Assembly (NCBI RefSeq): GCF_000368865.1
Contig: NZ_KB849728.1
Span: 62,001-126,000, forward strand
DNA: 64,000 nucleotides
Direction of reading: 5' to 3'
Origin: Acinetobacter bouvetii DSM 14964 = CIP 107468
GTDB lineage: Bacteria; Pseudomonadota; Gammaproteobacteria; Pseudomonadales; Moraxellaceae
How positions within the stretch are numbered: position 1 is the first letter of the stretch; each line of letters starts with the position of its first letter. The translations under genes were made by a program, and so were the position numbers. This document shows, one piece after another, positions 31,183 to 50,928 of this stretch. Below the pieces are notes generated by a model. It did no database searches. It was not told the DNA's origin and worked only from the letters and a program-made list of their open reading frames with translations.

Positions 31183-31206
31183 AAAAATATCCTTTATAAC
31201 TATAAA

Positions 31207-32319
31207 TTATTTTTTGGAACTATCTAAATAGAAATCCAAATACTGATCCCATACTTTATAACTGCAGAAGTTAGTCTTAGCCCATGTTGATGCATTATTA
31301 AAATTATTCAGAAATAATGTTTTATTTAACATTGCTTCATCAATTGCTTGTGAGATACCATCGAAATCTTGAAAATTAAATCTTATTCCAGATATGTTTT
31401 GTTCAACACTATCCTTCAACCCGCTAATATCATAACAAAAAGTCGGCACACTACAACATGCAGCCTCTATTGCAACATTGCCAAAACCATCCCTATGCGT
31501 TAAAAAAAGATGTAAATCTGCCTGTTGAAAATATTTTTGAGGTTGTTGAGTATGAGAAAAATATTCTACACAATTAAAATCACTAAGAACTTTTTTTAAC
31601 ATATTCTCAGATTCAATATCTTCAACACGTCCTACAATTTTAACACTTAAATTGTCTCTAGACTTCAATCTTGATAAGACTTCATAGATATCAAAAATTC
31701 CTTTATCGCGGCACACTCGTCCAATAACCAAAATATTAAAATTATTATCGATATCTTTCTTTACAGGAAAATACTTATCAGTGTTTACACCATTTGAAGA
31801 ACCTTTCCCAATAACAGCAGCTTGCGATAATGGTAAAATTTTTTCCTCAATATAGTCAATGCGCATTGTATTAGAAATAAAAATTACTTTATCTGATATT
31901 CTTAGACAAATTTTATCTAGTAATGCAAAGAACCATCTTTTTTTCCCTTTAAAATTTTCATACGCTCTCCCTCGTACTAATGCAATTCTATTAGGGTGAA
32001 AAGCTAAAAATGAAGATAGACTTCCCAATAATAAACCTTTAGGAGAAGAATAAACAACAGCATCAAACCGATTAAAAATAAAGAAAAAAACTAACCTAAA
32101 AAGCATATATATATCTTTTACTAAAGATATATTTCTTTCTATGGGAAAAATAATTACTCTCCCAACATTTCTTGATTTTAATTTTTCAGATTCATTTGAC
32201 CAATTACCACAAACCAATGTGATATCAATTTTTTTTTCATTAGTAAAATATTCTAATTGATCTCGACATAGAATATTAAATTGTGAAGAATCCGTCATTA
32301 TAAAACAAATTTTTTTCAT
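31207..32319 (-). CDS. Glycosyltransferase, GT4-like (module 1)
   Basis: A 370-residue GT-B fold glycosyltransferase. The C-terminal donor-binding half is recognisable from NILVIGRVCRDKGI and from HRDGFGNVAIEAACCSVPTFCYD, which carries the E-x7-E-like motif. It resembles the PglA/Cap-type family that adds the second sugar to the lipid-linked primer, so it may act right after the initiating transferase encoded next to it. The N-terminal third is less conserved. The gene is distinctly AT-rich, like its neighbours up to 37 kb, which suggests acquisition. It abuts the acetyltransferase gene by a one-base overlap. Confidence 0.8.
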   Translation of the reverse strand: MKKICFIMTDSSQFNILCRDQLEYFTNEKKIDITLVCGNWSNESEKLKSRNVGRVIIFPIERNISLVKDIYMLFRLVFFFIFNRFDAVVYSSPKGLLLGSLSSFLAFHPNRIALVRGRAYENFKGKKRWFFALLDKICLRISDKVIFISNTMRIDYIEEKILPLSQAAVIGKGSSNGVNTDKYFPVKKDIDNNFNILVIGRVCRDKGIFDIYEVLSRLKSRDNLSVKIVGRVEDIESENMLKKVLSDFNCVEYFSHTQQPQKYFQQADLHLFLTHRDGFGNVAIEAACCSVPTFCYDISGLKDSVEQNISGIRFNFQDFDGISQAIDEAMLNKTLFLNNFNNASTWAKTNFCSYKVWDQYLDFYLDSSKK

Positions 32320-32897
32320 TACTTAACAACCACATCATGCTTAGAAGATATAGAAGAAGGATTATCAACTCTATCCTTAACAACCTTTGCAGGAAGTCCA
32401 GCCATAATAACGTTATCTGGTGTGTTTTTAGTAACAACCGAGTTAGCCCCAATAATATTACCCTTACCAACGATTGTACCTGCAGCAATAACTGAGTGGG
32501 CTGCAATCCATGTCCCATACTTAATAACAATTGGCGCCGGATGAGAGCCACCTCTTTTTACTGAACCATCCTTAAATCCATGATTTGTAGATGACATTAC
32601 AACATAAGGAGCCAATATTACTTCATCTTCAAAAGTAATTCCGCCAACTGCATTCAACCAACAGCCTTTTGCTATATAAACATCCTTTCCAAGTCTAAGT
32701 TTATTTATTGATAATAAAGTCACATCCCTACCTATAAGTAACTTTTTAGGTCTGCCTGGCAAAAATAGTGATATTAATAATCCTCGCAATCTAATAATTG
32801 GCCCAATATCAGGCAAGAAATTCATTAATAATAAAAAAAACCAAATTGGTAATGCAAATCTAAATTGATAATGAATTTCTTTAAGTAAATTACTCAT
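32319..32897 (-). CDS. Left-handed beta-helix O-acetyltransferase (WbbJ-like)
   Basis: A 192-residue hexapeptide-repeat acetyltransferase, probably acetylating a capsule sugar from acetyl-CoA. Repeats are visible through KDVYIAKGCWLNAVGGITFEDEVILAPYVVMSSTNHGF, where the histidine is catalytic, and on to the usual GKGNIIGANSVVTKN...MAGLPAKVVK end. The start at 32897 is preferred: a GGAGTAAGG site precedes it and it overlaps the upstream glycosyltransferase stop by 8 bp. A longer frame to 32963 would add 22 unsupported residues. Confidence 0.82.
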   Translation of the reverse strand: MSNLLKEIHYQFRFALPIWFFLLLMNFLPDIGPIIRLRGLLISLFLPGRPKKLLIGRDVTLLSINKLRLGKDVYIAKGCWLNAVGGITFEDEVILAPYVVMSSTNHGFKDGSVKRGGSHPAPIVIKYGTWIAAHSVIAAGTIVGKGNIIGANSVVTKNTPDNVIMAGLPAKVVKDRVDNPSSISSKHDVVVK

Positions 32898-34023
32898 AAA
32901 CCTTACTCCAAAAAGATTTCTTCTGTTCAAGCAACTTAGCTTCGCCATATTCATGAGAAACAAATTCTAGATTCTTCAACCCATTAAATTGTCTTAACTC
33001 TTCAGCATCACCAAATTTCTCAATTAGGCTAGCCAATTCTTTTATATTATTAGGCTCATACGTAACATCTTTAGCCAGAACTTCGGGTATACCTCCAGCT
33101 GTAGAACCAATGCATGGCAAACCAATTGCCATTGCTTCTAGAAGCGATCTAGGCATTCCTTCAGTTAAAGATGGAATAACATAAATATCACCCTGATTTA
33201 GAATAGAAAAAATCTTATCTCGATCAGTTAATGCACCATAAAAAACAACATTAATACTGAGTTGCTCTGCTAACGCTTCTAAGGTTTTTTTCTGTGCTCC
33301 ATCACCAATTAAATGTATTTCAATATTTTCCTGATTTAACAAGTGAATAGCCTGAAGAAGTGATGCATGTCCCTTCTCCCCTTCAAGACGACCTAAGGAT
33401 ACGATCTTGATTTTGTTTTGTACTTTATAATCCAATTTTTTACAATTAATTTCACTGAATTTGAAACTTGAAAAAATAAAACTCGGTCGTTTACTGCTAT
33501 ACAGATCTTTACAATACTGGCTAACAAAACTGTTCGCTTTCGAAAATTTACCTTGAAACCTTGCCAAGCCGTCTAATATATTTGCTAATGCTTTGACCCA
33601 TAGCTTTTCTCCAATAACACCTATCATGCCTTCTTTTACATTACCTGGATACTCTCTTAAATATGGTTTATTTAATAAAAATAAAAATAACCAAAGAAAA
33701 TTAGTTGAGTTTCCGCTACGTAATAAAAAAAACTTATGCTTTAATGCAACCTTAAAAATTGCTGCAATAATGAATGGTGATTTTAAAAGAAATTGTTTCA
33801 TTCCTCTAAAATAAACTAACTTTTCGTAAGAAACATTTTCTCCGTCTACGCGTACCATATCACTAGTGAATGTATCTACATTTTTTACGCGCGCAACAAC
33901 TGTAACCTGATCAAAATAGTTTAAATAATCACACCAATAAGTATAAGGAAAAGCTAATTTTGTATAAAGCTTACCATCATATTCATAAAACCTATGTTCA
34001 AGGCTAACAGCTATTTTTTTCAC
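32890..34023 (-). CDS. Glycosyltransferase family 4 (module 1)
   Basis: A 377-residue GT-B glycosyltransferase. Donor-domain motifs are KIVSLGRLEGEKGHASLLQAI, HLIGDGAQKKTLE and IPSLTEGMPRSLLEAMAIGLPCIGS. The acceptor-side domain is unusual and AT-rich. It should transfer one sugar to the growing lipid-linked repeat on the cytoplasmic face. It directly follows the polymerase gene with no gap (34024), showing tight coupling in one operon. Confidence 0.85.
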   Translation of the reverse strand: MKKIAVSLEHRFYEYDGKLYTKLAFPYTYWCDYLNYFDQVTVVARVKNVDTFTSDMVRVDGENVSYEKLVYFRGMKQFLLKSPFIIAAIFKVALKHKFFLLRSGNSTNFLWLFLFLLNKPYLREYPGNVKEGMIGVIGEKLWVKALANILDGLARFQGKFSKANSFVSQYCKDLYSSKRPSFIFSSFKFSEINCKKLDYKVQNKIKIVSLGRLEGEKGHASLLQAIHLLNQENIEIHLIGDGAQKKTLEALAEQLSINVVFYGALTDRDKIFSILNQGDIYVIPSLTEGMPRSLLEAMAIGLPCIGSTAGGIPEVLAKDVTYEPNNIKELASLIEKFGDAEELRQFNGLKNLEFVSHEYGEAKLLEQKKSFWSKVYE

Positions 34024-35451
34024 TTAAACACCATATTTCTTTATCATTGCAAAATTCTTTATTAAAAATAAAAATAAAATTACTAAAAATCCATTCTTAA
34101 AAAAGAAAAATAATAAATTATCTGAATCAGCTAAAAGACTCATCAAGCAAAGATTTGACAAAAAAGGAATTAATAATAAATAAGGATCTGACTTACTAAT
34201 TCGCCTAGTAAAATTATCCATGAACGCTATAAGCGTACTAAACAGTCCAAAAACAAATACAGCAATTATAGGTCCAAAATTTAAGAAGGCTTCACCATAA
34301 GCACCATAAATCCTTGAGTTATAAAAATCCTGAAAAACTAGACTTGATTTTTTATCATACAAAATCTCAGATCCAGCTGAGTTTTTAGTATATAAATCAA
34401 ATTCACCCCATAGCGGTAAAATTTTATTTATTGTTGATAGATATGTCTGACCAAATTTAATGTCATAGAATCCAAAATCATAATACTGATAAAGCATATA
34501 AGAATGCAGACCAACTCGTGAAAAGTCATTTAAAAGAATAGTAATTGTTGGATTATCCTCAAAACGTCCAGTATCTTCTAAGGAATATTGCATAGAGAAT
34601 GCATCTACACCAAAACTCTTATAAATTGAATATAAATTCATAAATAATATTAGAAAAACTAATCCAACAATTAAATGAGTCTTCTTAAGTTTAAAATAAT
34701 AAATGTGAATTACACCTGCAAACCAAAATAACCCCCAAATCGTATTACTTCTGCTTCCTCTAAAACCACCAAATAAAAGCTTTAATATAAAAAATATTAA
34801 AAAAATAGAAATAACAAATAATAATGGATTTTTCAAATTTTCTTTCTTTACGAACAAACACAATGACAATAAAGCTAAAATAGGGAAAGGCTCTGCTAAC
34901 ATGAAAAGCATACCTAAACCATCAAACTCACTTCTATCTTCAGTCCATGTTGTCATGTAACCTGTTATTCCGCCAAACTTAGCATAAACAAGTACCTGAC
35001 ATGCCATTGAAAATAATAGAAAAAAGCAACAAATAAATAAAGCACTTTTCTTTTTTAATTTATAATCTACTTTACTAGTCTCAACTTTTTTTAAAAAAAT
35101 TAAACCACATATATAATGCAAAACAGCTACAAAAAAATAAAACCAAAAACAAATATAAACCCACTTATTCCAATCTATTTCTTTAGGAGAATAAAATAAA
35201 TACTGTTTATAATATATTGAAACAATAGGAGATAAAATTAACACCCACACTAGCACTAAAGACACAAAGACATAGGGATGAAATAATGAACCACCTTTTT
35301 TCATTCCTAAACTGACTGCCTCTAGCAGACTGAGCATTCCTAAAAAAAATGGTATAGCAATATACACAAAGTCTACACCTACCATTATTGCAGATAATGC
35401 ACTAGACACTATGCCAAATACAATATTATTTTTATGCACTACTATATTCAT
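34024..35451 (-). CDS. wzy: Wzy-like oligosaccharide repeat-unit polymerase
   Basis: A 475-residue protein with about 11-12 hydrophobic segments separated by short loops and one large periplasmic loop (about residues 300-380), the usual layout of O-antigen/capsule polymerases. Sequence conservation in this family is very low; topology and position are the evidence. It would join repeat units in the periplasm after Wzx export. It is extremely AT-rich. It overlaps the acyltransferase gene by one base and precedes the glycosyltransferase directly. It is the only polymerase candidate I find in the whole locus. Confidence 0.75.
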   Translation of the reverse strand: MNIVVHKNNIVFGIVSSALSAIMVGVDFVYIAIPFFLGMLSLLEAVSLGMKKGGSLFHPYVFVSLVLVWVLILSPIVSIYYKQYLFYSPKEIDWNKWVYICFWFYFFVAVLHYICGLIFLKKVETSKVDYKLKKKSALFICCFFLLFSMACQVLVYAKFGGITGYMTTWTEDRSEFDGLGMLFMLAEPFPILALLSLCLFVKKENLKNPLLFVISIFLIFFILKLLFGGFRGSRSNTIWGLFWFAGVIHIYYFKLKKTHLIVGLVFLILFMNLYSIYKSFGVDAFSMQYSLEDTGRFEDNPTITILLNDFSRVGLHSYMLYQYYDFGFYDIKFGQTYLSTINKILPLWGEFDLYTKNSAGSEILYDKKSSLVFQDFYNSRIYGAYGEAFLNFGPIIAVFVFGLFSTLIAFMDNFTRRISKSDPYLLLIPFLSNLCLMSLLADSDNLLFFFFKNGFLVILFLFLIKNFAMIKKYGV

Positions 35452-35912
35452 TATCTTACGATTGTTCCCATATCAAGAGATTTATCTACAAATGATAGAG
35501 CACCAATAATAACATTATCTTCTACAACTATTTTACCCACCACCACACTATTACAATATATAGTAACATTGTCATTTATCTTAGGGTAATAATCCCTCTT
35601 ATTACCAATCGTAACATTTTGATAAATTGTAAAATTATTACCGATTATACTACCTCCACCAAATACTATTCCAATAGGGTGAGGAACTCTTAAACCATAT
35701 CCAATTTTACAACCTTTTCCAAAATCTATATTAAAAAATGTGATTAAAAAATTTCGAAATATCCAAAAGAGAAATCCTGGCGAAAATTGGGCACATCTAA
35801 TAAATAAAGTAACTCTTGTAGCAGGATTGATTAAAAATTTTATAGAATTAGATAATGTGAATATCTTGTAAGACTTCATAAAATCAGATTTCACAGCTTG
35901 CCTAAACTTCAT
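35451..35912 (-). CDS. Serine-acetyltransferase-like (hexapeptide) acyltransferase
   Basis: A 153-residue CysE-like left-handed beta-helix protein: GYGLRVPHPIGIVFGGGSIIGNNFTIYQNVTIGN, with the catalytic histidine in VPHP, then hexapeptide repeats to DNVIIGALSFVDKS. It is much shorter than metabolic CysE, as is typical for capsule-locus copies. It probably O-acetylates a sugar of the repeat unit or transfers another acyl group; the substrate is not predictable. It overlaps the flippase gene by 11 bp. Confidence 0.78.
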   Translation of the reverse strand: MKFRQAVKSDFMKSYKIFTLSNSIKFLINPATRVTLFIRCAQFSPGFLFWIFRNFLITFFNIDFGKGCKIGYGLRVPHPIGIVFGGGSIIGNNFTIYQNVTIGNKRDYYPKINDNVTIYCNSVVVGKIVVEDNVIIGALSFVDKSLDMGTIVR

Positions 35913-37056
35913 TTACTTTATCCTTTAGATAATTAACACATAGATTCACTAATAAAAGAAAAGAAGATATTACTGAAGCATAATATACACCAACATATCC
36001 AAAAAACTTAATAAAAATAAAATTCAAAATCGCCACAATAAAAGTATTCATCAATGTTACTTTAAAAATTTTTTTAAACTTCATGCTAGACACATAAAGC
36101 ATATTTACAAAAACCACTAATGTTTGCATTACCATCGACATCATTATTAAAATTTTTATATCATTAGAAATTACGCCATAGTAATTATATATCTCCTCTA
36201 AAACAAAATCACATAAAAACCAAAAACCAGTAATAAATAATAAATTATATATTATAGTTATTTTAAAGACCTTAGATGTATGCTTTCTTATCTTTGGTAA
36301 AATAGCTTGATATAACGATGTTAATGGCAACAACATTATTGTTGTAAAATAAGTCAAATACATAAATTCTGCGACTATTCTCTTATCAAAAAAATAATTT
36401 AGATAAAATCTAGGTATTGACGTATTAAAACTTATCAAAAACGAGGTTAAAACAAATGGCAAAACACCTATAAAAATTGGTCTGACTTTATCCCAATTGA
36501 ATTTATACTGTATTTTTGTTAATCTTAAATCAAAAAATGAATATCCAAAAATAAATGCCAAAGGATAAATAAAATATGAATATTTTTCATATCCATATAG
36601 ATACAAAAAATAAAACATAATTAAAAATAAAGTCAGTTTAATTAATTTTGAATATCCAAAAAGCTGAGACTCACCTTTTCTGACCCATTCTCCATATATT
36701 AAATCAGCATTAACTTCAATCAACTTAACTAAAAAAACCATCAATCCAATTAAAAAATAATCATTCTGACTAATAAGAAAAATAATACTTATTGATATGT
36801 AAAATAAATTTAAAATCGTTCGTAGCGATTCATATTCGATTAATTGATATTTTTCACTTAAATCCGCACTATACACACTTTTAAAATTAAATGCACAAAA
36901 TATAGCTAATGGTGTAAAAAATGCTAAAAAATATGAAAACGAACCAGCCTCATTAATCCCAACATATTTTGATAAAAAAACTAATATTAGCCACTGCATT
37001 GCAGCAAATGCAACACTTCCTCCCACATGTGCTATTATTTTATATAATTTCATCAA
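35902..37056 (-). CDS. wzx: Wzx-like repeat-unit flippase (module 1)
   Basis: A 384-residue polytopic protein with about 10-12 membrane segments and the MOP/PST flippase pattern: an N-terminal IIAHVGGSVAFAAMQWLILVFL segment followed by SKYVGINEAGSFSYFLAF. It should move the undecaprenyl-linked repeat unit across the inner membrane. It is extremely AT-rich, unlike the second flippase at 47394-48605. It lies 60 bp downstream of the first epimerase gene. Confidence 0.8.
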   Translation of the reverse strand: MMKLYKIIAHVGGSVAFAAMQWLILVFLSKYVGINEAGSFSYFLAFFTPLAIFCAFNFKSVYSADLSEKYQLIEYESLRTILNLFYISISIIFLISQNDYFLIGLMVFLVKLIEVNADLIYGEWVRKGESQLFGYSKLIKLTLFLIMFYFLYLYGYEKYSYFIYPLAFIFGYSFFDLRLTKIQYKFNWDKVRPIFIGVLPFVLTSFLISFNTSIPRFYLNYFFDKRIVAEFMYLTYFTTIMLLPLTSLYQAILPKIRKHTSKVFKITIIYNLLFITGFWFLCDFVLEEIYNYYGVISNDIKILIMMSMVMQTLVVFVNMLYVSSMKFKKIFKVTLMNTFIVAILNFIFIKFFGYVGVYYASVISSFLLLVNLCVNYLKDKVNEV

Positions 37057-37115
37057 TAACTACGCCAAATTACTTTTTAATATTTAATCCAAATTCAAAA
37101 AAATTAATAATAGTA

Positions 37116-38138
37116 TTACTCAACACTACTCACATACCAGCGCATGGCCAATTGAATGCCTTCGACAATTTTAAACTGTGGCGCATAGCCCAGGCCTTGC
37201 TCAATTTTGGCAATGCTGGCTTGTGAATGACGTACATCACCCGCACGGAATTCACGGTACACAGGATCACGGTCAAATTGAACATCATTTTCAGCAAGCG
37301 CCACTTGAATGGCACGGTATAACTCATTGAGCGTGGTACGGTCACCCACTGCCACGTTGTACACCTGATTTTTTGCTTCATCCGATGCTGTCGCGGCTAA
37401 AATATTGGCTTGAACAGTGTTGTCAATAAAGCAGAAATCACGGCTGGTTTCACCATCACCATTAATGAAGACTTCTTCACCATCAATCATCGATGCCGTC
37501 CATTTCGGAATCACTGCCGCATAAGCACCATTTGGATCTTGGCGTTGACCAAACACGTTAAAGTAACGCAGGCCAATTGCTTTAAATCCGTATGCACGTG
37601 CAAATACATCGGCATAAAGCTCATTCACATACTTTGTTACCGCATAAGGTGAAAGCGGATTGCCGATATTCTCTTCCACTTTTGGCAATGCAGGATGGTC
37701 ACCATAGGTTGAACTGCTGGCTGCATAAGTAAAGCTGGCAACACCTGCATCACGTGCCGCAGTGAGCATGTTTAAGAAACCACTGATATTGGTTTCATTA
37801 GTGGTAATTGGATCGGCAATGGAACGCGGTACAGAGCCCAACGCTGCTTCATGCAAGACATAATCCACACCTGCACAGGCTTTTTGGCAGTCTGCAAGAT
37901 TTCGAATATCGCCTTCAATAAAATGGAAATTCGCCCATTGCTCAGCAGTGACTAAGCTTTGCACTTCATCCAAATTATGCTGATGTCCTGTGGCAAAGTT
38001 ATCTAAACCGATCACGGTTTGATTGAGCTTAAGTAAAGTTTCTAAAAGGTTTGAGCCAATAAAGCCTGCAACACCAGTGATTAACCAATTTTTTGGTTTT
38101 TGATTTAATTGCTCACATATAGCTTGATATTGGCTCAT
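37116..38138 (-). CDS. UDP-HexNAc/HexNAcA 4-epimerase, WbpP/TviC type (copy 1)
   Basis: A 340-residue extended short-chain dehydrogenase/reductase. [13 protein letters not shown] is the NAD-binding motif (about residues 20-32), [11 protein letters not shown] carries the catalytic serine and [11 protein letters not shown] the Tyr-x-x-x-Lys. WbpP/TviC enzymes epimerise UDP-GlcNAc or UDP-GlcNAcA at C4. It pairs with the dehydrogenase directly upstream to make UDP-GalNAcA or UDP-GalNAc. A second copy at 48611-49630 is very similar in protein and DNA. The GC content is normal, in sharp contrast to wzx next to it. Confidence 0.88.
37423..37466. repeat. 44-bp block identical to 48915-48958
   Basis: The longest exactly identical stretch I found between the two epimerase copies, in the same orientation. 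With other blocks it makes the two gene pairs plausible substrates for homologous recombination. Confidence 0.8.
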
Positions 38139-38158
38139 TCTCTTCTTTTTCCTTAAAA

Positions 38159-39436
38159 TTATAAACGAATGTCAGATTCGGCTTGAGATAACACATATTT
38201 CAAGTCATACAAAATATGTGCTCCTTTACCCAATGCACGAATTTTCTCAGCACCCATTTCTTTAAACTGCTCATGCGCAACGGCCAGAATCACCGCATCA
38301 TATTTGTCATTTTCTAAACTTGAAATTGGGCTAATCCCATATTCATGCTCAGCTTCAGCTGCGTCTACCCAAGGGTCATAAACATCGACATTAGCATTGT
38401 ATTCTTTCAGCTCATTCACAATATCAATGATGCGGGTATTACGAATATCTGGGCAGTTTTCTTTAAAGCTTAAGCCTAAAATCAGCACTTTAGCATCTTC
38501 AACTTGAATGCGTTTTTTCAGCATCGCTTTAACCAGCTGAGTCACTACATAAGCACCCATGCCATCATTCAGACGGCGGCCCGCTAAGATAATTTCTGGG
38601 TGATAACCAATGGCTTGTGCTTTATGGGTTAAGTAGTACGGGTCAACACCGATACAGTGACCACCCACTAGACCCGGACGGAATGGTAAGAAGTTCCATT
38701 TGGTGCCCGCAGCCTTCAGTACTGCTTCAGTATCAATACCCATTTTATTGAAGATCAATGCTAATTCATTAATCAGCGCAATGTTGACGTCACGCTGTGT
38801 GTTCTCAATAACTTTAGCCGCTTCAGCAACTTTAATGCTAGTTGCTTTGTGCGTACCTGCTTCAATAATTAAGTTATAAACTTGGTCTACATATTCAGCC
38901 ACTTCAGGTGTTGAACCTGAGGTGATTTTAAGAATATTGGTCACGCGGTGCAGTTTGTCACCTGGGTTAATACGCTCCGGACTATAGCCTGCATAGAAAT
39001 CTTTATTAAATACCAGTTCTGAATTTTTTTCTAAAACTGGAATGCACACTTCTTCAGTCGCACCTGGATATACCGTAGATTCATATACCACGATATCGCC
39101 TTTTTTTAACACTTTAGCAATACTTTCCGACGCTTTTACTAAGGGTGTTAAATCTGGTTGCTTATATTCATCAATTGGCGTTGGTACAGTCACAATGAAA
39201 AAATTACAATCATGCAGTTGCTGTAAATCAGTAGTATAGCTTAACTGTGTTGCTTGCTTTAATTCATCAGGTGAAACTTCTAAAGTATGGTCCTGCCCAC
39301 TTTGTAATTCATCTATACGTTTTTGATGGATATCAAAACCAACGACTGGAATTTTTTTACCAAATTCCACGGCCAGTGGTAAACCCACGTAACCTAGTCC
39401 AATAATTGCTATTTTCAATTCAGAAAGCTGTAACAT
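38159..39436 (-). CDS. gna: Nucleotide-sugar dehydrogenase, Gna/WbpO/TviB type (copy 1)
   Basis: A 425-residue UDP-N-acetylhexosamine 6-dehydrogenase. [15 protein letters not shown] is the NAD motif, [15 protein letters not shown] follows, [22 protein letters not shown] carries the catalytic lysine/asparagine part, and [12 protein letters not shown] carries the active cysteine. It oxidises UDP-GlcNAc or UDP-GalNAc to the uronic acid. In Acinetobacter K loci this gene is called gna. It lies 20 bp upstream of the first epimerase. Copy 2 at 49651-50928 is over 90 percent identical in protein by eye. Confidence 0.9.
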
Positions 39437-39599
39437 TCCACGAAGCCTTATGTTATGTATTTATGTCTATAATCAAATAAATAAAAAAACCGCGCCTAAT
39501 ATAACAGATATTATTTTATTATTTCTATTCATGAAGAAATTAATTACATTTTTTAATAGTAAAAACATCATTTTTTATTTTGATACTCTGTTACCAAAA
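39437..39599. other. Intergenic region upstream of gna copy 1
   Basis: AT-rich region between gna copy 1 and the decayed epimerase gene. It may carry a promoter for module 1; I see no definite element. Confidence 0.3.
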
Positions 39600-40226
39600 T
39601 CAACTTTTGTTTGCATCTAAAAAACTGAATTGCGTATTAAAATTCGCAATAATTCTATGATCTTCTTCAACTTTCTCTTTGACTTTTAATAATGCGTCAA
39701 TCCCAGTATTTCCTGAAATCTTAATACTTTCAAGATTAATATTTTCTTTAATTTAATTATTATAAAATGATTGTGTCGGTGCAAAATGATAATTTGCCAA
39801 GGCACGTGTTAATTTACGGTTTGCTTCCTCAGGCCATGGCGAATAAATATCCCCCGTACGCAAGCCTGCCTCAACATACCCAATTTTTACTTTATGATAA
39901 TATGCTCCAAAGAAGCGGCAAAAGACGTTGCAGTGTCCCCATGCACCAAAACAACATCCGGCAGTCACTCTGCAAATACAGTTTCTAGCCCTTTTAAACA
40001 CCACAAACCACATCAATAATGTGTTTGAACAAGCTTCATCAAATTAAAATCAAAGCTTTAAATTAAAAGGTTCCAATACCTGATCTAATATTTGACAGTA
40101 CTGACCAGTTACACATACTTTTGTGTCAAAATTCAACTGCTGCTGTAATTCTAATGCTAAAGGAGCCATTTTAATTGCTTCCGGCCGTGTTCCAAAAACA
40201 CGGAGAACTTTTTGTACGTCAAATCC
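39600..40226 (-). pseudogene. Decayed UDP-GlcNAc 2-epimerase gene (wecB/mnaA remnant)
   Basis: Read across frames, the minus strand shows a WecB N-terminus ([20 protein letters not shown], then [22 protein letters not shown]). It continues through GLETVFAE, a stop, [18 protein letters not shown] in another frame, VGY-like [24 protein letters not shown] in a third, and finally ENINLESIKISGNTGIDALL after another stop. At least two frame changes and two stops are present, and the protein ends about halfway through the family's usual 370 residues. The intact enzyme would make UDP-ManNAc. It is a fossil of another capsule cassette at the junction between the two modules. Confidence 0.85.
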
Positions 40227-40416
40227 TTATCTAAATTTATAGTAAATGAATTAAGCGACCAAGATTCTAATAATATTATCAAACCCAATATTAAGCCTCA
40301 TTATTAATTCTGCTAAATCCACACATTTTATTACATTTAATTTATTGAAAAGATCACCCTGAACCTCTAGTAGAAATTTTAAAAAAATATAAATATTAAC
40401 CATCTAAATCAAAAGC
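40227..40416. other. Gap before gdr with unassigned remnant
   Basis: AT-rich. On the minus strand a frame reads KFLLEVQGDLFNKLNVIKCVDLAELIMRLNIGFDNIIRI before a stop, which could be the tail of another lost capsule gene. It cannot be named. Confidence 0.25.
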
Positions 40417-42267: not shown

Positions 42268-42306
42268 AAAGGGCTCGAAGGGAGTTTAAGTGACATCAAA
42301 GCGCAA

Positions 42307-43500: not shown

Positions 43501-43525
43501 TTCCTAGATAAGATTTTAAAAATCT

Positions 43526-44182
43526 TTATTTCTTCTCTAAAATTCGGGCAGGATTGCCGACTACCGTCACGCCTGCAGGAACATTTTTCGTCACCACCGC
43601 GCCCATGCCAATCACAGCGCCTTTGCCTATGACTAGCGGCTTGTCTGGCGTGCCCTGCTTAATCACCGCGCCTGTGCCAATATAAGCATGGTCTTCAATA
43701 TGAATATTGCCATTGCACTTTACGCCTGGGGCAAATGTCACATAATCGCCAATGACACAGTCATGTTCAACATAGCTATATAAGTTGGCATGGAAACATT
43801 TACCAATTTTGATATTGGAGGTAATGATGACAAAAGGGCTCAATGCAGCGCCGGCTCCAACAGAGACATCATCCATAGTGACGGTATTATTTGCCTTAAT
43901 TGACCAAAGTGCAATTTGGTCCTGTTCCAGTTTATTTGCCAGCATTTCACGGATTTTGCCGTTTGCGATGGCAATTAAAACAAATTTATTTTCCGCAGCG
44001 ATCTGTTTAAAATCGTCATAATTTAAGGCGCGATGACCATTCACCATTGCCGGCGCTTTTAGACCATCATCAATAAAAACGATCTCAGCCTTTATTTTCA
44101 ATCTCGCCAACTGTTCTCTGGCAACAGGCATCAAACTGCGTCCGCAACCGGATGCACCATAAATTGCATACAGTTCAGTCAT
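43526..44182 (-). CDS. PglD-type UDP-amino-sugar N-acetyltransferase
   Basis: A 218-residue NeuD/PglD family protein. The N-terminal Rossmann-like part (YAIYGASGCGRSLMPVA) binds UDP-sugar, and the C-terminal left-handed beta-helix has the catalytic histidine in YVEHDCVIGDYVTFAPGVKCNGN and the GKGAVIGMGAVVTKNVP end. It acetylates the 4-amino group to give UDP-2,4-diacetamido-2,4,6-trideoxyglucose. It overlaps the initiating transferase gene by 8 bp and lies 25 bp before the aminotransferase. Confidence 0.9.
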   Translation of the reverse strand: MTELYAIYGASGCGRSLMPVAREQLARLKIKAEIVFIDDGLKAPAMVNGHRALNYDDFKQIAAENKFVLIAIANGKIREMLANKLEQDQIALWSIKANNTVTMDDVSVGAGAALSPFVIITSNIKIGKCFHANLYSYVEHDCVIGDYVTFAPGVKCNGNIHIEDHAYIGTGAVIKQGTPDKPLVIGKGAVIGMGAVVTKNVPAGVTVVGNPARILEKK

Positions 44183-44786
44183 GGTGCTGATCCTGCTTTG
44201 TGCCCGTAAACTTAGTCATAGTGGCCTCACCTTCAGCACTGATATCTTCTTTTGCAATCACTTTCTGAACGGTTTTCAGCATGATTTTAAAATCCAGCAC
44301 AGTGGACTGATTTTCCACATACCATGTGTCCAGCTTGAATTTTTCTTCCCAGCCAATGGCATTGCGGCCATTCACTTGCGCATGGCCGGTCATCCCAGGA
44401 CGCACATCATGGCGCTTTGCCTGCTCTTCATTATACAAAGGCAGGTATTCCATCAAGAGCGGACGCGGGCCAACCACGCTCATATCGCCTTTGATCACAT
44501 TCCACAGTTCAGGCATTTCATCCAAACTGCTGGAACGCAGCATTTTGCCGAATGGCGTTAACCGCTCGCTGTCCGGCAGCGGGTTTCCTTGCTCATCCGC
44601 CGCATCTTTCATGGTGCGGAATTTGATCATTTCAAAGGGCTTGCCATTTAAGCCCGGACGCACTTGCCGGAACAGCACCGGTGAGCCTAAATTCTTCTTC
44701 ACCTTATAAGCAACAAAAGCATAGAGCGGTGACAGCAGAATAAGCGCAATTGAAGCAATGACGATGTCTAATAAACGTTTAAGCAT
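44175..44786 (-). CDS. Initiating sugar-1-phosphate transferase (second copy, PglC/ItrB type)
   Basis: A 203-residue PglC-like transferase. One N-terminal re-entrant/membrane helix (IVIASIALILLSPLYAFVAY) is followed by LFRQVRPGLNGKPFEMIKFRTMKDA and the RRPD/KPG-type block VRPGMTGHAQVNGRNAIGWEEKF. It probably loads the diacetamido-trideoxyglucose phosphate made by the adjacent PglF/E/D enzymes onto undecaprenyl phosphate. It is clearly related to the ItrA-type gene at 30562-31182, so two primers are possible in this cell. Confidence 0.9.
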   Translation of the reverse strand: MLKRLLDIVIASIALILLSPLYAFVAYKVKKNLGSPVLFRQVRPGLNGKPFEMIKFRTMKDAADEQGNPLPDSERLTPFGKMLRSSSLDEMPELWNVIKGDMSVVGPRPLLMEYLPLYNEEQAKRHDVRPGMTGHAQVNGRNAIGWEEKFKLDTWYVENQSTVLDFKIMLKTVQKVIAKEDISAEGEATMTKFTGTKQDQHHD

Positions 44787-45929
44787 TTAGATTAATCCCA
44801 TTTCCGTCATCATATGTTTATTCACTTCATGCACATCATACTTAGTCAAAGCAATTTCCCTGGAGCGTTGACCCATTTTTTCAGCAAGCTCGGGATCATC
44901 AATAAACTTACGCATGGCCTCAACCAAGCTTTCAACAGATTTGACAGGAACTAAATAGCCATTTTCCCCATCCACAACAGTTTCACGGCATCCTGGCGCA
45001 TCTGTGGTAATAATTGCGCGGCCCATTGCCATAGCCTCTAAAACCGTACGCGGCGTGCCTTCACGGTATGAAGGCAGCACATATATAGAACTCTCGGCAA
45101 TTGCAGGACGGACATCCGACAATTTACCCCAATAATTGATGGTCTTATCGGCCACCCAGTGATCCAGCTCGTGCTGAGAAATGGCAGCGGGATTTTCATC
45201 AATCCAGCCCACCAAATTAAATTCCACTTCAGGATTTGACTGTTTAATGATTGCCGCTGCGGCCGCAAATTCCCTGACACCTTTATCACCCAATAAACGG
45301 GCAATCAGCAAAAAAGAAATTCTAATTTGATGGGTATTATCTAAGGGCAAAGGCACAACATTAAAATCTGAAACATTCACGCCAGACCCGTTTACTACAA
45401 CAGCTGGGGTCGCCTGAGTAATTAAATTCAGCTGTTTAAAAAGCGCCAAGTCATCAGGATTTTGAAAAAATGCTTTGGAACTGCGGACAAGCGCTTGCCG
45501 GTACAAACCATGCACCAGCTTTTGAAAAATACTGCGGCCGCCTTCGGCTTCTACATTTTGAAATGCATAGCCCAAGCCTGTAATTAATGCGAACCTCTGC
45601 GGAACTTTAGCCAGCCATGCGGCAAGAGTTCCGTAAATAACCGGTTTGATCGTATAGGCAAGCACATAATCCGGCTTTATTTTTGTAATGATTGCACGCA
45701 TAGCCCAAAGTGTTTTCAAGTCCGCTATCGGATTCGTGCCTGTTCGCTGCATAGGTATTGCATGCACATAATAGCCAAAATTTTCCAGTTGCTTATGCTC
45801 TGCGGCAAACTGCTCTAAATCTGGCGACAAGATATGAATTTCAAAGCCTTGCGCATGTATAGCCTCTAACAACTTTCCACGGAAATTTAAAACTGAAGGA
45901 AGGTAGCTAGAAATTATACAAAAAACCAT
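44787..45929 (-). CDS. Glycosyltransferase family 4, PglA-like (module 2)
   Basis: A 380-residue GT-B enzyme. Signature segments are the N-terminal VLNFRGKLLEAIHAQGFEIHILSP, the middle SFLLIARLLGDKGVREF and the C-terminal LPSYREGTPRTVLEAMAMGRAIITTDAPGCRETV. The family includes PglA and WbpX-like enzymes that add the second sugar, often GalNAc, to a bacillosamine-type primer. It is encoded immediately before the PglC-type gene (one-base gap), consistent with consecutive steps. The ATG at 45929 begins MVFCIISSYLPS. Confidence 0.88.
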   Translation of the reverse strand: MVFCIISSYLPSVLNFRGKLLEAIHAQGFEIHILSPDLEQFAAEHKQLENFGYYVHAIPMQRTGTNPIADLKTLWAMRAIITKIKPDYVLAYTIKPVIYGTLAAWLAKVPQRFALITGLGYAFQNVEAEGGRSIFQKLVHGLYRQALVRSSKAFFQNPDDLALFKQLNLITQATPAVVVNGSGVNVSDFNVVPLPLDNTHQIRISFLLIARLLGDKGVREFAAAAAIIKQSNPEVEFNLVGWIDENPAAISQHELDHWVADKTINYWGKLSDVRPAIAESSIYVLPSYREGTPRTVLEAMAMGRAIITTDAPGCRETVVDGENGYLVPVKSVESLVEAMRKFIDDPELAEKMGQRSREIALTKYDVHEVNKHMMTEMGLI

Positions 45930-46326
45930 TTTACATGCACCATAAAATCTAAATTAATGACTTCTACCCCTCAGATTATAAGCCGTTACAGATGACAAAA
46001 TCCAAATAATACATCGAATAAAAAGAGAAAACGTCCAGCCATTGTGAGCATCTAAAGTATAGAGTTATGCTGAAGACTATTTATTTTATTAAAATAGATA
46101 TGACAATCAATTATATAACAAAAAAGCCTGCATAACTTTATACAGACAGGCCCGCATCAGCCCTTTCATAGCTGCAAACTGCAATTCCCTGCTTTGAAAG
46201 CGGCGGCACACGGGGAATGCTGAATAATAAAAAGGGGAAATAAAAGAAGTATCAACAAATGTTAAAAACACCCCAGCAAGCATCTAAAAATGATTTACCT
46301 CCTATAGGATTAATGCTGCTGAAAAT
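45930..46326. other. Gap of ~400 bp inside module 2
   Basis: No ORF of useful size on either strand. It holds a minus-strand intrinsic terminator (about 46119-46154) that would end the transcript of the flippase/glycosyltransferase unit. Presumably it also holds a promoter for the genes from 45929 downward. In comparable capsule loci a polymerase gene would be expected around here; I see no recognisable remnant. Confidence 0.45.
46119..46154 (-). terminator. Intrinsic terminator inside the capsule locus
   Basis: Read on the minus strand, GCCTG and CAGGC pair around a loop of about 16 nt that can pair further, and TTTTTT follows. It lies about 170 bp after the stop of the glycosyltransferase gene at 46327, splitting the capsule gene cluster into two transcription units. 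Confidence 0.65.
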
Positions 46327-47397
46327 TCATTTACCAGCATTACCCTTATAAAGATTTAACCATTGAGTTAAAATATATTTCCAATCAAAACTTTCCGCTT
46401 TAGGATAAACCCAATTCTTCTGCACACTATGCAATGAATTTTCTATCATTTGGGCAAGCGCTTCAGGTTTTCCTATTTCGACCAAATTGGATTGAAGCAA
46501 TTCAACAGCGCCATCCGTTGCAGTTGCTGCAATTGGACGCTCGCATAACATAGCCTCTAATATTGCAAGCCCAAATCCTTCCCATGCTGATGAAGAAACA
46601 AATACATCACTAGCATTTAAAAGCGCTGTAATATCATTTCTGATTCCAAGAAATTGCAGGCGATTTTCTATGCCCAAGACATTTGCCAAATTTTCCATTT
46701 CTTGTTTTTTCGGACCATCGCCTACGATTAATAAAAATGCATTTTTTTCTTTTTCCGCAACAATCTTAAATGCTTTTAATAAGGTTGGATAATCTTTTGG
46801 AGTATCTATCCGTCCAATCGTCATAATGATTTTTGCATCATCAGCAATTTTCAGCTGCTGGCGGGTGCTTGCCCTTAAATCCGGATCATATTTATAGCGG
46901 TTTGAATCAATGCCATTATAAACGGTCATGATTTTTTTATTTTTAACCGCCCCTGCCTGCATTAAGGCCCTTGAAGCATTATCGCTTACATTGGTATGCA
47001 CATCGCATAAATTTTCCGTCAAGGCGTAAGTGGCCATGCGCAGCCGCCCTCCTTCAAAATTGGAATGAGAGCTGCAAATAACCCGAACGCTTTTTCTGAA
47101 AAGTTTAACCAAACGCGCCATAATATTGGCATGGAACATGTGCGCATGAATGACATCAGGCTGCACCTGATCTACCAGCTTCAGCAATGAATAGATCGAC
47201 TTAAAAGCCGAAATTCCAGAACTCAGCGGTATTTTATACAGCTTAATATTTTGATGAACTGGCCTTCTTACGATATCTCCAGTGAAATAAACCAGACAGA
47301 CTTCCTGACCGGATTCATATAATTTATCCGCAAGTTCACACACAACTTTTTCTGCCCCTCCCATTCCTAAACCAGTAATCAGCAACATCACTTTCAT
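46327..47397 (-). CDS. Glycosyltransferase family 4 (module 2)
   Basis: A 356-residue GT-B glycosyltransferase. GLGMGGAEKVVCELA at the N-terminus is a classic acceptor-side glycine-rich loop of this family. The C-terminal half has IMTIGRIDTPKDYPTLLKAF, LLIVGDGPKKQEMENLA and SSAWEGFGLAILEAMLCERPIAATATDG. It adds one sugar to the repeat unit in the cytoplasm. Its start overlaps the second flippase gene by 4 bp. It ends before the 400-bp gap with the terminator. Confidence 0.9.
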   Translation of the reverse strand: MKVMLLITGLGMGGAEKVVCELADKLYESGQEVCLVYFTGDIVRRPVHQNIKLYKIPLSSGISAFKSIYSLLKLVDQVQPDVIHAHMFHANIMARLVKLFRKSVRVICSSHSNFEGGRLRMATYALTENLCDVHTNVSDNASRALMQAGAVKNKKIMTVYNGIDSNRYKYDPDLRASTRQQLKIADDAKIIMTIGRIDTPKDYPTLLKAFKIVAEKEKNAFLLIVGDGPKKQEMENLANVLGIENRLQFLGIRNDITALLNASDVFVSSSAWEGFGLAILEAMLCERPIAATATDGAVELLQSNLVEIGKPEALAQMIENSLHSVQKNWVYPKAESFDWKYILTQWLNLYKGNAGK

Positions 47398-48605
47398 TTT
47401 TGCTTACCTTTTAAATGGAAGAAAATCATCGAAAATGCAAGCAGGCACTGAAAAATATAGCTGATAATCAATGTATAAATTCCACCGGTCAGTCCATACT
47501 GTGGAATATACAAGTATGAAACGAACAGCGTTAAAATTAATAAGGCTGAAAATAAGTATACCTGCTGCTTGATAATGCCGATGGCTGTCAATGTATACCC
47601 CAATACAGTGGACAGATAGAGCGCTAGGCCCGCGCACATGATTAAGATTAATTCTCTTTCATAAACAGCATATGCATTTCCATAGATTAAATTTAAAATG
47701 TATTCGCCTAAGATTACACTTGCAATAATCACGAGGACACCGAGCCCCCCCGCAATTGCTAAAGCGGTCATTAAATATTTTTTAAAATCAGCTATGTTTG
47801 TATTCCAGGCGCTAGTAATTTTAGGGCTAAGATACTGGCAAATAGAATTAATAAAAATACTGCCGACAATGATGAAATAACTCAGCACAGTAAAAATACC
47901 GACAGATTCAATTCCAGAATATTTATTTAAAAACAATCTGGGAATTGTACTTTGCAGTGTCACGATCCCCAAAGAGATTCCCATAGGAATAGCAGAACGG
48001 AGAATGCTGAGGTTTAAATTGAAAGAATGAATTTCCTTGGTTTTTAATATATATAAATTATCTAAAAATACCCAAACAAAAAAATAAACGCTTAAAAATA
48101 AAACTAAAGAGGTGTGAAAGTCAAAATAATACAGCCCTGCAAAAACAGCTACAATAGAAAATAAACCCTTAAAAAACAATGATTTACTTATTAATTTGGT
48201 TTTATCATGAGCATTATAGTAAGCATAGATGATATCTGAATATGATTCAAAAAACTTCAGCAGGCTTACCAGCAGCAAAACCCAAAAGGATAGATGAGAA
48301 GCCAATCCCCAAATTAAACAGCAAATCAACGCTAAAAAAGAAGCGATTATTCTTAAATAATAAAATTGCGAATATGCATATTTTTTCTGGCTATTTACAT
48401 CCAAAATATACAAAGGCCTCAGCTGTAAATTGCTAATCGCAAATAATGGCGCCGCGATGGCCAAGGCCAATGAATATTGCCCCAAATTATCCTGACTGGT
48501 TAACCGGGCGAATAGAATTAAAATAACCCACTGAGAAAAGGCAAATACAAAATTTCCACCAATAAGCCATTTTGCCTTTCCCAGCAAGTTTTTTACTTCT
48601 TTCAT
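47394..48605 (-). CDS. wzx: Wzx-like repeat-unit flippase (module 2)
   Basis: A 403-residue polytopic MOP-superfamily flippase with about 12 membrane segments. The N-terminal region (WLIGGNFVFAFSQWVILILFARLTS) resembles that of the module 1 flippase (QWLILVFLSKYVG) in arrangement, but the two are divergent in sequence. It should export a second type of undecaprenyl-linked oligosaccharide. It has moderate GC, higher than module 1 wzx. It lies 5 bp downstream of epimerase copy 2. Confidence 0.85.
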   Translation of the reverse strand: MKEVKNLLGKAKWLIGGNFVFAFSQWVILILFARLTSQDNLGQYSLALAIAAPLFAISNLQLRPLYILDVNSQKKYAYSQFYYLRIIASFLALICCLIWGLASHLSFWVLLLVSLLKFFESYSDIIYAYYNAHDKTKLISKSLFFKGLFSIVAVFAGLYYFDFHTSLVLFLSVYFFVWVFLDNLYILKTKEIHSFNLNLSILRSAIPMGISLGIVTLQSTIPRLFLNKYSGIESVGIFTVLSYFIIVGSIFINSICQYLSPKITSAWNTNIADFKKYLMTALAIAGGLGVLVIIASVILGEYILNLIYGNAYAVYERELILIMCAGLALYLSTVLGYTLTAIGIIKQQVYLFSALLILTLFVSYLYIPQYGLTGGIYTLIISYIFQCLLAFSMIFFHLKGKQK

Positions 48606-48610
48606 CTTAT

Positions 48611-49630
48611 TTATGCAAATTTAACATACCAAGGCATAGCAATTTTAATGCCCTGCTTGATATTAAAATCAGGCTTAAATTGCAAATATTTCTCTATTTT
48701 TTCTATACTTGCTTGTGAGTGGCGGACATCACCCGCGCGAAACTCTCTATAAACCGGGTCTTTTAAATACACTATCCCATTTTCATTTAATGCAGATTTA
48801 ATCTCATTAAACAATTCATTCAATGTGGTCCGATCTCCGACCGCGACATTGTATACCTGATCTTTCGCATCATCTGAAGCTGTGGCTGCCAAAATATTTG
48901 CTTGCACAGTGTTATCAATAAAGCAGAAATCACGGCTGGTTTCACCATCACCATTAATAAATACATCATCGCCGGCAATCATGGCTGCCGTCCACTTTGG
49001 AATTACAGCGGCATAAGCCCCATTCGGGTCTTGACGTTTGCCAAAGACATTAAAGTAGCGCAGGCCAATAGTTTTAAAACCGTATGTACGCGCAAAAACA
49101 CTTGCATACAGTTCATTCACGTATTTTGTCACAGCATAAGGTGACAGCGGATTGCCAATGTTTTCTTCCACTTTCGGCAATGCAGGATGATCCCCATAGG
49201 TCGAACTGCTGGCCGCATAGGTAAAGCTTTTCACTTCGGCATCACGCGCCGCTGTCAGCATATTCAGAAAACCGCTGATATTGGTTTCATTGGTGGCGAT
49301 AGGATCTGCAATCGAACGCGGCACAGAACCCAATGCAGCCTCATGCAGCACATAATCCACCCCGGCGCAGGCTTTTTGGCAAGTGTCAAACTGACGGATA
49401 TCGCCTTCAATGAATTTGAATTTCGCCCATTGCTCTTTCGACACCAAGCCTTGAACTTCATCCAGATTATATTGATGGCCTGTCGCGAAGTTATCCAGAC
49501 CGACAACGTTTTGATTCAACTTCAGCAAGGTTTCAAGCAAATTTGAACCAATAAAGCCTGCTACGCCTGTCACGAGCCACGTTTTAGGAGCTTGCTGCAA
49601 CTGCATGCAGACGGTTTCAAAAGTATTCAT
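48611..49630 (-). CDS. UDP-HexNAc/HexNAcA 4-epimerase, WbpP/TviC type (copy 2)
   Basis: A 339-residue homologue of the epimerase at 37116-38138. The same motifs are present ([35 protein letters not shown]) and most of the sequence is identical. The C-terminal 60 residues are the most divergent part. The start at 49630 (MNTFETVC) fits the length of copy 1; a frame to 49648 would add six residues. The likely reaction is C4 epimerisation of UDP-GlcNAc(A). It lies 20 bp downstream of gna copy 2. Confidence 0.88.
48915..48958. repeat. 44-bp block identical to 37423-37466
   Basis: Partner of the repeat in epimerase copy 1, in direct orientation about 11.5 kb away. Confidence 0.8.
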
Positions 49631-49650
49631 GATCTTTCCTTTCAGCACGC

Positions 49651-50928
49651 TTATAAACGGATATCTGATTCAGCCTCTGACAGGACATATTTCAGATCAT
49701 ACAGCACATGTTCAGCCTTGCCCAAAGCGCGGATTTCTGCCGCGCCCATCGCTTTAAACTGCTCATGCGCAACCGCTAAAATCACAGCATCATATTGGCC
49801 TTGCTCAACCGTTTGAATCGGCTGAATGCCGTACTCATGCTCCGCTTCAGCCGCATCCACCCAAGGGTCATGCACATCTACATTGACATGATATTCTTTC
49901 AGTTCATTCACAATATCAATAATGCGGGTATTGCGGATATCCGGGCAGTTTTCTTTAAAGCTTAAGCCTAAAATCAAGACTTTGGCATCTTCAACCTGAA
50001 TGCGTTTTTTCAGCATGGCTTTGACCAGCTGGGTCACCACATAAGCGCCCATGCCGTCATTTAAACGGCGGCCCGCTAAAATAATTTCCGGGTTATAACC
50101 TATGGCCTGCGCCTTATGGGTTAAATAGTACGGGTCAACGCCAATACAGTGACCGCCCACCAAACCGGGGCGAAACGGCAGAAAATTCCATTTTGTGCCG
50201 GCAGCATTTAACACGGCTTCAGTATCAATGCCCATTTTATTAAAAATCAGCGCCAGCTCATTAATTAAAGCAATATTGACATCACGCTGCGTGTTCTCAA
50301 TCACTTTCGCCGCTTCTGCTACTTTGATACTGGCCGCTTTATGCGTGCCTGCTTCAATAATCAAGTTGTAAACTTGATCGACATATTCGGCAACTTCTGG
50401 CGTTGAGCCAGAAGTGATTTTCAGAATATTGGTGACACGGTGCAATTTATCACCGGGATTGATCCGCTCAGGGCTGTAGCCTGCATAAAAATCTTGATTG
50501 AAGCTAAGTCCTGAGTTTTTTTCTAAAACAGGAATGCACACTTCTTCTGTCGCGCCAGGATAGACGGTTGACTCATAAACCACGATATCGCCTTTTTTCA
50601 GCACTTTAGCAATGCTCTCTGAGGCTTTGACCAAAGGGCTTAAATCAGGCTGCTTGTATTCATCAATTGGCGTTGGCACGGTCACAATGAAAAAATTGCA
50701 GCCGCTCAGCTGCTGCAAATCAGTGGTATAGCTTAAAAAAGCCGCTTGTTTTAATTCTTCTGGAGATACTTCTAAAGTATGGTCCTGTCCGCTCTGCAAC
50801 TCATCAATGCGTTTTTGATGGATATCAAAGCCAACCACTGGCACCTGTTTTCCAAACTCGACCGCTAACGGCAAACCAACATAACCTAGCCCAATAATTG
50901 CTATTTTCAGTTCAGATAGTTGTAACAT
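49651..50928 (-). CDS. gna: Nucleotide-sugar dehydrogenase, Gna/WbpO/TviB type (copy 2)
   Basis: A 425-residue dehydrogenase, nearly the same protein as copy 1 (38159-39436), with intact NAD motif IGLGYVGLP and active cysteine in [12 protein letters not shown]. It is the first gene of the minus-strand capsule operon beside wza, the standard position of gna in Acinetobacter K loci, so this copy is probably the ancestral one. It makes the uronic acid sugar nucleotide used by the epimerase encoded next. Confidence 0.92.

Follow-up and report, generated by a model that had tools for sequence, protein, structure and literature searches.

Two biosynthesis modules in one K locus of Acinetobacter bouvetii: a likely protein O-glycan module without a recognised polymerase beside a putative capsule module

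Why would a single capsule (K) locus hold two sets of biosynthesis genes, and what would each of them make? In Acinetobacter baumannii the protein glycans attached by PglL derive from capsule K-units (PMC12645811). The locus considered here lies in a stretch of 64,000 nucleotides from Acinetobacter bouvetii DSM 14964 = CIP 107468 (contig NZ_KB849728.1, C4:62001-126000; hereafter the window), whose genome (G000) comprises 3.39 Mb in 6 contigs. A first-pass annotation had noted two runs of genes between galU and wza and had taken them for two complete capsule modules in series. We argue here, from gene content and comparison with relatives, that the run on the wza side (module 1, 40417-50928) is likely a dedicated protein O-glycan module and that the run on the galU side (module 2, 30562-39436) is the capsule module. 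We assign module 1 to the O-glycan because it lacks a recognisable polymerase gene, recurs among relatives, is conserved, and is kept in genomes without a K-type Wza. On our best reading, the pathway that is shared in A. baumannii would be split in the A. bouvetii locus; that one module serves the capsule and the other protein O-glycosylation had been among the suggestions of the first-pass annotation, and it is the one favoured by the comparison with relatives.

Two modules and one polymerase gene

Gene calls and family assignments confirm both runs at these coordinates, in series between wza (51812) and galU (30521) and with all described genes on the minus strand. Gene names follow A. baumannii usage, whereas gtrA to gtrD, wzx1 and wzx2, itr1 and itr2 and the suffixes a and b are labels coined in this analysis; G numbers denote compared Acinetobacter genomes and P numbers clusters or types of polytopic proteins. 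From the wza side, module 1 starts with gna_a, a TviB-like UDP-GlcNAc 6-dehydrogenase (49651-50928; NF011729, 702.8 bits, cut-off 592), and gne_a, a TviC-like C4-epimerase with UDP-GalNAcA as predicted product (48611-49648; PF01370; NF011728 at 520.4 bits, below the cut-off of 760). There follow the flippase gene wzx1 (47394-48605; PF01943, 26.8 bits, slightly under the cut-off of 28.2), the GT4 glycosyltransferase gene gtrA (46327-47397; PF00534/PF13439), a non-coding gap of 397 bp (45930-46326) and a second GT4 glycosyltransferase gene, gtrB (44787-45929). The initiating transferase gene itr1 (44175-44786; PF02397, 213 bits) adjoins the QuiNAc4N genes, namely qhbA, an acyltransferase of the PglD/NeuD family (43526-44182; TIGR03570, 173.6 bits, cut-off 160.8), qhbB, a DegT aminotransferase (42307-43500; PF01041, 317.7 bits), and gdr, a UDP-GlcNAc 4,6-dehydratase (40417-42267; PF02719, 410 bits).

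After 980 bp, module 2 opens with its own pair, gna_b (38159-39436; TviB-like UDP-GlcNAc 6-dehydrogenase, NF011729, 702.9 bits) and gne_b (37116-38138; TviC-like C4-epimerase, NF011728, 531.7 bits, below the cut-off of 760). It continues with the flippase gene wzx2 (35902-37056), a hexapeptide acetyltransferase (35451-35912; PF00132), the polymerase gene wzy (34024-35451; TIGR04370, 41.0 bits, curated cut-off 40), gtrC (32890-34023; GT4, PF00534), a second hexapeptide acetyltransferase (32319-32963; PF00132; its listed frame overlaps gtrC and the true start is probably internal), gtrD (31207-32319; GT4, PF00534) and itr2 (30562-31182; PF02397, 220 bits). The wzx2 product matches no Pfam or NCBIfam model and is assigned by sequence clustering: it falls with wzx1 in one single-linkage cluster of 63 polytopic proteins from the mapped loci. 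Next come galU (29646-30521, minus strand; named from its translation), which is the right-hand border of the variable region and whose orthologues border it in many relatives, and then ugd and gpi. At the other border stand the capsule export genes wza-wzb-wzc (51812-55552, plus strand; wza by PF02563/PF22461, wzb and wzc named from translations).

Each run thus contains a dehydrogenase/epimerase pair, a flippase, glycosyltransferases and an initiating transferase, as the first-pass annotation had stated. Its view of both as complete capsule modules fails on the absence of a wzy from the wza-side run. No polymerase was found in module 1, which gives no TIGR04370 or Wzy_C match and has wzx1 as its sole polytopic protein; gdr carries four hydrophobic stretches. 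Genome-wide, TIGR04370 matches in module 2 and elsewhere at chance level only (E 0.78), and Wzy_C matches in PglL, with one other match below the cut-off. These two models detect no polymerase outside module 2 and PglL anywhere in the genome; EpsG and O-ag_pol_Wzy were not searched genome-wide. Two further candidates were rejected. The second Wzy_C match (C2:348895-349176) lies below the cut-off, has a stop in frame and sits between two unrelated genes, and the 397-bp gap between gtrA and gtrB is too short for a hidden Wzy, with five polytopic proteins giving only short matches there at E >=0.6. Because the polymerase is found in module 2 only, module 1 is not a complete capsule module. It holds the oligosaccharide set expected of a dedicated O-glycan module, that is an initiating transferase, glycosyltransferases and a flippase without a polymerase, and module 2 with the borders holds what a Wzx/Wzy-dependent capsule locus comprises (borders, initiating transferase, glycosyltransferases, wzx and wzy).

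Could the two modules together build one longer or branched repeat, as had also been proposed? They stand in one locus and both carry gna and gne for the same nucleotide sugar. A profile search of the whole genome finds exactly two Bac_transf genes, one per module, and the two initiating transferases are 61% identical and the two flippases 25% identical, which implies chains that are separately started and separately flipped; module 1 also occurs alone in five genomes without a K-type Wza (see below). We regard a joint repeat as very unlikely.

Where would the product of module 1 go? PglL_A has one match in the genome (36.2 bits, cut-off 25), in a 546-aa frame at C4:128122-129762, 2.1 kb past the right edge of the window, and the Wzy_C match lies in the same open frame. 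The oligosaccharide might instead be transferred to the lipooligosaccharide core, giving a semi-rough lipopolysaccharide, or to pilin by another ligase, rather than to many proteins by PglL. PglL and WaaL are related, and according to Kenyon and Hall 2013 ligation to lipid A-core by PglL was not conclusively excluded (PMC3628348). With a single PglL_A match in the genome and no second ligase found by Wzy_C, we consider this destination improbable. In the dedicated O-glycan module that we favour, gdr, qhbB and qhbA would supply a sugar that is presumably of the bacillosamine type, and itr1 would load it onto undecaprenyl phosphate. The gtrB and gtrA products would add two sugars, one of them probably GalNAcA by way of gna and gne, in a presumed order and with presumed linkages; wzx1 would then flip the short, unpolymerised trisaccharide and PglL would presumably move it to proteins. 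Module 2 would make the capsule with itr2, its glycosyltransferases, wzx2 and Wzy, followed by export through Wza-Wzb-Wzc. For gna/gne, qhb and gdr, the sugars were assigned after Kenyon and Hall 2013 (PMC3628348) and Cahill 2022 (PMC9676051).

The position of Wzy across the genus

The A. bouvetii locus is not one of a kind, as the layout of module 1 recurs in many mapped loci. We counted Bac_transf genes in 119 genomes of the genus and searched gtrB in 175, the own genome being included in both sets: at least two initiating transferases are present in 33 of the 119, and gtrB at >=66% identity in 49 of the 175. Of these 49, 47 entered the counts below; the two omitted are G045, where the locus meets a contig edge, and G114, with a 12-kb contig in a genome that is 80% complete. 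Twelve further loci picked by other criteria and six additional stretches were mapped outside the counts. In its commonest form module 1 reads gna-gne-wzx-atr-atr-gtr-gtr-gtrB-itr1-qhbA-qhbB-gdr. The variant in the window is shorter, and its wzx1 and gtrA are found again in G013 and G166 (wzx1 68% and 66% identical, respectively). In most two-module loci an unrelated set follows gdr toward galU, some of these sets ending with the mapped stretch; in G058, G060, G098, G111, G036, G123 and G159 the second set stands elsewhere around the export genes. Other kinds of flippase replace wzx in six of the 35 Wzy-less modules described next, either P7 (weakly MatE-like; G156, G168 and G098) or P3 (MurJ-like; G111, G036 and G123). 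Many module-1 loci, among them those of G037, G043, G081 and G088, carry between gtrB and itr1 a 179-aa, weakly acetyltransferase-like protein that the window does not have. The gdr genes fall into two lineages, one 73-86% identical to that of the window, where a second module usually follows, and one about 56-61% identical, where gdr usually adjoins galU.

The position of Wzy was compared with the presence of Wza and the number of initiating transferases. Between gna (in G120, the contig end) and gdr, a Wzy-like protein is absent from 35 of the 47 loci and present in 12. The 35 consist of 30 with Wza and at least two initiating transferases and five without a K-type Wza. Where Wza is accompanied by a single initiating transferase, the Wzy-like protein lies inside the module in 10/10 cases (G035, G038, G075, G090, G105, G118, G119, G141, G166 and G172); with Wza and at least two initiating transferases it lies inside module 1 in only 2/32 (G058 and G060), and without a K-type Wza in 0/5. 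Fisher tests give p 4.5e-8 for 10/10 versus 2/32 and 3.3e-4 for 10/10 versus 0/5, values that are uncorrected for kinship among these related genomes. G058 and G060 each have two K-type Wza genes and therefore apparently two capsule loci. PglL_A is found in 48 of the 49 gtrB-bearing genomes, the exception being G141, a single-module locus with a Wzy-like protein. Outside the genus, 17 non-Acinetobacter loci with gtrB relatives were mapped out of 80 loci returned, together with one Acinetobacter locus. Thirteen of the 17 have a polytopic protein directly before gtrB or two upstream, as in ordinary loci, and L145 (a 5.6-kb contig), L153, L156 and L193 lack this pattern; no clear Wzy-less module was seen among these 17.

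The two modules also differ in how well they are kept. For this comparison 600 ordered pairs were formed from 25 two-module loci; the other five of the 30, whose second set stands elsewhere, were omitted, and several module-2 sets end at the edge of the mapped stretch. A homologue of at least 50% identity in the other locus exists for 90% of module-1 proteins on average, versus 15% for module 2 and 76% for the flanking genes. Selection of the loci through gtrB favours module 1 in such a comparison, which was for this reason repeated with the anchor genes (gna, gne, gtrB, itr, qhbA, qhbB and gdr) left out, giving 71% for module 1 versus 8% for module 2. Module-1 homologues (at least 50%) average 82.7% identity between loci. 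Among the mapped loci, wzx1 and gtrA of the window have close relatives in G013 and G166 only, and none of its genes from wzx2 to gtrD has a full-length relative exceeding 40%. These six genes have a G+C content of 24-34%, and the module-1 genes 39-48% with the exception of wzx1 (34%).

Genomes without a K-type Wza, and points against a split pathway

Is module 1 tied to capsule export? A match to the Wza of the window at 1e-30 is absent from 15 of the 175 genomes, one of which (G114) is only 80% complete. Five of the 15, G104, G107, G138, G173 and G174, lack a K-type Wza genome-wide and have a full module 1 near galU, one initiating transferase and PglL. No wza-wzb-wzc is present at their locus; Wzc was not searched genome-wide. 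A Poly_export protein is missing from G107, and in each of the remaining four the only one is of a different kind, 559-563 aa long. The tree genes do not differ between G173 and G174, and the five genomes would represent about three or four events. Judged by this comparison, module 1 would be independent of capsule export. Four further Wza-less genomes (G015, G050, G092 and G160), all with PglL, carry at the locus a different Wzy-less module, gna-wzx-319 aa-gtr-gtr-gne-gtrB (51-54%)-itr-galU. The same alternative module stands beside galU in G055, whose genome also holds, on a different contig, a second locus that includes a wza and encodes a protein of polymerase cluster P9. As a side observation, a second kind of Poly_export protein (frames of 559-570 aa) occurs in eight of 49 genomes searched (G022, G035, G060, G104, G138, G159, G173 and G174) and suggests that the genus has a further system for polysaccharide export.

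These genomes bear on the possibility that the product of module 1 is a further capsule or an exopolysaccharide, polymerised by an enzyme encoded outside the K locus or by the Wzy of module 2. A wzy in a genomic island or prophage has been described for A. baumannii (PMC9676051), polymerase families are diverse, and two of them were searched genome-wide. Yet five genomes without a K-type Wza and with a single initiating transferase keep module 1, and wherever Wza occurs with a single initiating transferase the Wzy-like gene lies inside the module. A shared polymerase is hard to imagine because the module-2 sets of the Wzy-less two-module loci are largely unrelated. We consider such a second polymer unlikely, though it is the strongest of the alternatives.

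Several observations speak against a dedicated O-glycan module or weaken the comparison on which it rests. Wzy is very diverse, some A. baumannii K types have wzy outside the K locus (PMC9676051), and an unrecognised polymerase may lie elsewhere in the A. bouvetii genome. In the single-module set, P36 scores above the Wzy_C cut-off and P37 above that of TIGR04370, with P35 and P40 below the Wzy_C cut-off; P6 (4/10 genomes) and P14 (2/10), which make up six of the ten Wzy calls, match no Pfam or NCBIfam model. The grounds for calling them Wzy-like are their topology, their position and, in a profile comparison with the other polytopic clusters, weak links to a single cluster (probability 51-53). 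Fold searches with models of P6 (mean pLDDT 69.0) and P14 (54.6) returned nothing below E 0.1; several of the top, non-significant matches are GT-C transferases, and P6 has no match in phage and plasmid searches. In a kinship-aware test on a tree of galU, ugd and gpi, which has 42 rows (32 of them with the trait) and requires a minimum of 5-6 changes of the trait, the association of Wzy with a single module is carried by five independent pairs for, none against and one undecided (p 0.06).

Other points of this kind come from the Wza-less genomes and from the closest relative by Wza. A mapped Wzy-less module together with PglL is found in only 9 of 14 near-complete Wza-less genomes. G031 has polytopic proteins and PglL without Bac_transf, G001 and G025 have PglL without Bac_transf, and G150 and G171, whose loci are outside the mapped set, have neither a K-type Wza nor a PglL_A match. 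In G092, a block inserted between gtrB and itr includes a 264-aa protein with five hydrophobic stretches. G042 has the Wza closest to that of the window (96-97%), yet a different K locus spread over two contigs (L212 and L213) and no gtrB match at 1e-60; whole loci therefore seem to be exchanged between relatives.

Taking both sides together, we lean toward the view, somewhat less firmly than for the A. bouvetii locus itself, that 35 of the 175 genomes (33 when G173/G174 and G036/G111, two near-identical pairs, are each counted once), about one fifth of the sampled Acinetobacter species, have divided the shared pathway between two modules that usually lie within one K locus, a conserved one for the protein glycan that lacks a polymerase and an exchangeable one for the capsule. 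Protein glycosylation would be kept when capsule export is lost, and the split would have arisen several times by loss of wzy.

History of the locus and relation to known systems

How did the locus come to hold two modules? The first-pass annotation had proposed that a second module was newly inserted between gdr and galU. Many relatives share the conserved wza-side module and an unrelated, variable one, and the junction in the window carries a remnant, and both observations speak against a new insertion. The 980 bp between the modules (39437-40416, minus strand) hold a truncated, frame-broken mnaA (UDP-GlcNAc 2-epimerase; tblastn 64%, residues 1-206 of the 373-aa G039 protein). In G039, G059, G084 and G155, an intact mnaA-mnaB stands directly after gdr, where the window has this decayed first half of mnaA. 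Since these four relatives start module 2 with mnaA-mnaB at that point, an earlier module 2 probably began with mnaA, and the present galU-side module probably took its place instead of being an addition.

A recent tandem duplication of gna-gne, a further candidate, was rejected. Over 2247 bp the DNA of the two gna-gne pairs is 79% identical, and the similarity stops at the ends of the gene pair. Each gna is about as close to the gna of other species as to its counterpart in the window; gna_b is 83% identical to those of G154, G113 and G039 versus 82% to gna_a. The proposal of recombination at the gna and epimerase genes fares better. G120 has a second gna-gne after gdr, at the same place, on a contig that ends inside a copy, 96% identical, of the corresponding gne, and recombination at gna/gne is a possible way in for module 2.

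The gap between gtrA and gtrB hints at the earlier state of module 1. At this position G166, which has the same wzx/gtrA variant, carries two genes: one is polymerase-like (Wzy_C 30.1 bits, cut-off 31.7), and the other encodes a 313-aa polytopic protein that we read by inspection as acyltransferase-like. No polymerase remnant is detectable in the gap of the window (397 bp) or of G013 (581 bp). This comparison suggests an origin of module 1 as a full capsule module from which the polymerase was later lost. In such a history, an ancestral single Wzy-bearing module would have served both capsule and protein glycan, as reported for A. baumannii; after transfer of the capsule to another module that is open to exchange, or after loss of capsule export, module 1 would have kept all but Wzy. 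Could it then be a functionless former capsule module, left behind after module 2 took over? The empty gap at the polymerase position and the decayed mnaA next to the module would fit. All nine module-1 genes are open frames, however, with homologues at an average of 82.7% identity, and the set is kept in five genomes without a K-type Wza, and we give this explanation little credence. A promoter and terminator scan of the region stayed at chance level. A terminator-like hairpin with a T run lies on the minus strand at 46126-46147, between gtrA and gtrB, so that the gtrB-itr1-qhbA-qhbB-gdr half may be transcribed separately; hairpins of this kind are no more frequent here than expected by chance.

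The Neisseria pgl locus holds dedicated oligosaccharide genes for a protein O-glycan. To our knowledge neither this locus nor the ogc cluster of Burkholderia lies inside a capsule locus, unlike module 1 of A. bouvetii, which lies between wza and the putative capsule module. The Burkholderia O-glycosylation cluster (ogcXABEI) likewise represents dedicated oligosaccharide genes for a protein O-glycan (PMC12152626). With the shared capsule and O-glycan pathway of A. baumannii, the A. bouvetii system has in common the locus, the export genes, the sugar-precursor genes, a PglL-type enzyme and an undecaprenyl-linked K-unit as substrate. In A. baumannii one K-unit pathway has both fates (PMC12645811), whereas the A. 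bouvetii locus has two itr genes, two flippases and a polymerase in one module. The qhbA-qhbB-gdr genes with an ItrA-type transferase, and a predicted bacillosamine-type sugar, are also found in A. baumannii KL1 and in the wee cluster of A. venetianus RAG-1 (itrA1/weeH, qhbA/weeI, qhbB/weeJ and gdr/weeK; PMC3628348). In KL1 these genes lie directly upstream of galU in a single module (PMC3628348), whereas in A. bouvetii a second module follows.

Another non-baumannii species described with more than a single biosynthesis set at its K locus is A. variabilis, where the extra capsule genes come with a second wza/wzc; the section concerned does not discuss a Wzy-less O-glycan module (PMC12904642). 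A. baumannii K loci carry an itr, and KL8 and KL9 'unusually' have itrA and itrB side by side (PMC3628348). A survey of 237 KL distinguishes seven itr types and calls ItrB2 non-functional (PMC9676051), and for A. radioresistens LH6 a single PglC is taken to serve the two pathways (PMC8402811). In a literature search by title and start of abstract, with subscription journals mostly outside its coverage, no description of a dedicated Wzy-less O-glycan module in Acinetobacter was found. The parts and the pathway are known; their separation was not found described for Acinetobacter.

What would such a separation mean? In Acinetobacter the capsule unit is reported to double as the protein glycan (PMC12645811); a change of capsule would then force a change of the glycoproteins, and in a shared pathway the functions of capsule and glycoproteins are hard to separate by removing the initiating transferase. 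A split locus, if true, would be a natural way to assign phenotypes to glycoproteins or to capsule, and it would explain free variation of the capsule with a constant protein glycan. In that case, K-locus typing in non-baumannii species may misassign protein-glycan genes to the capsule.

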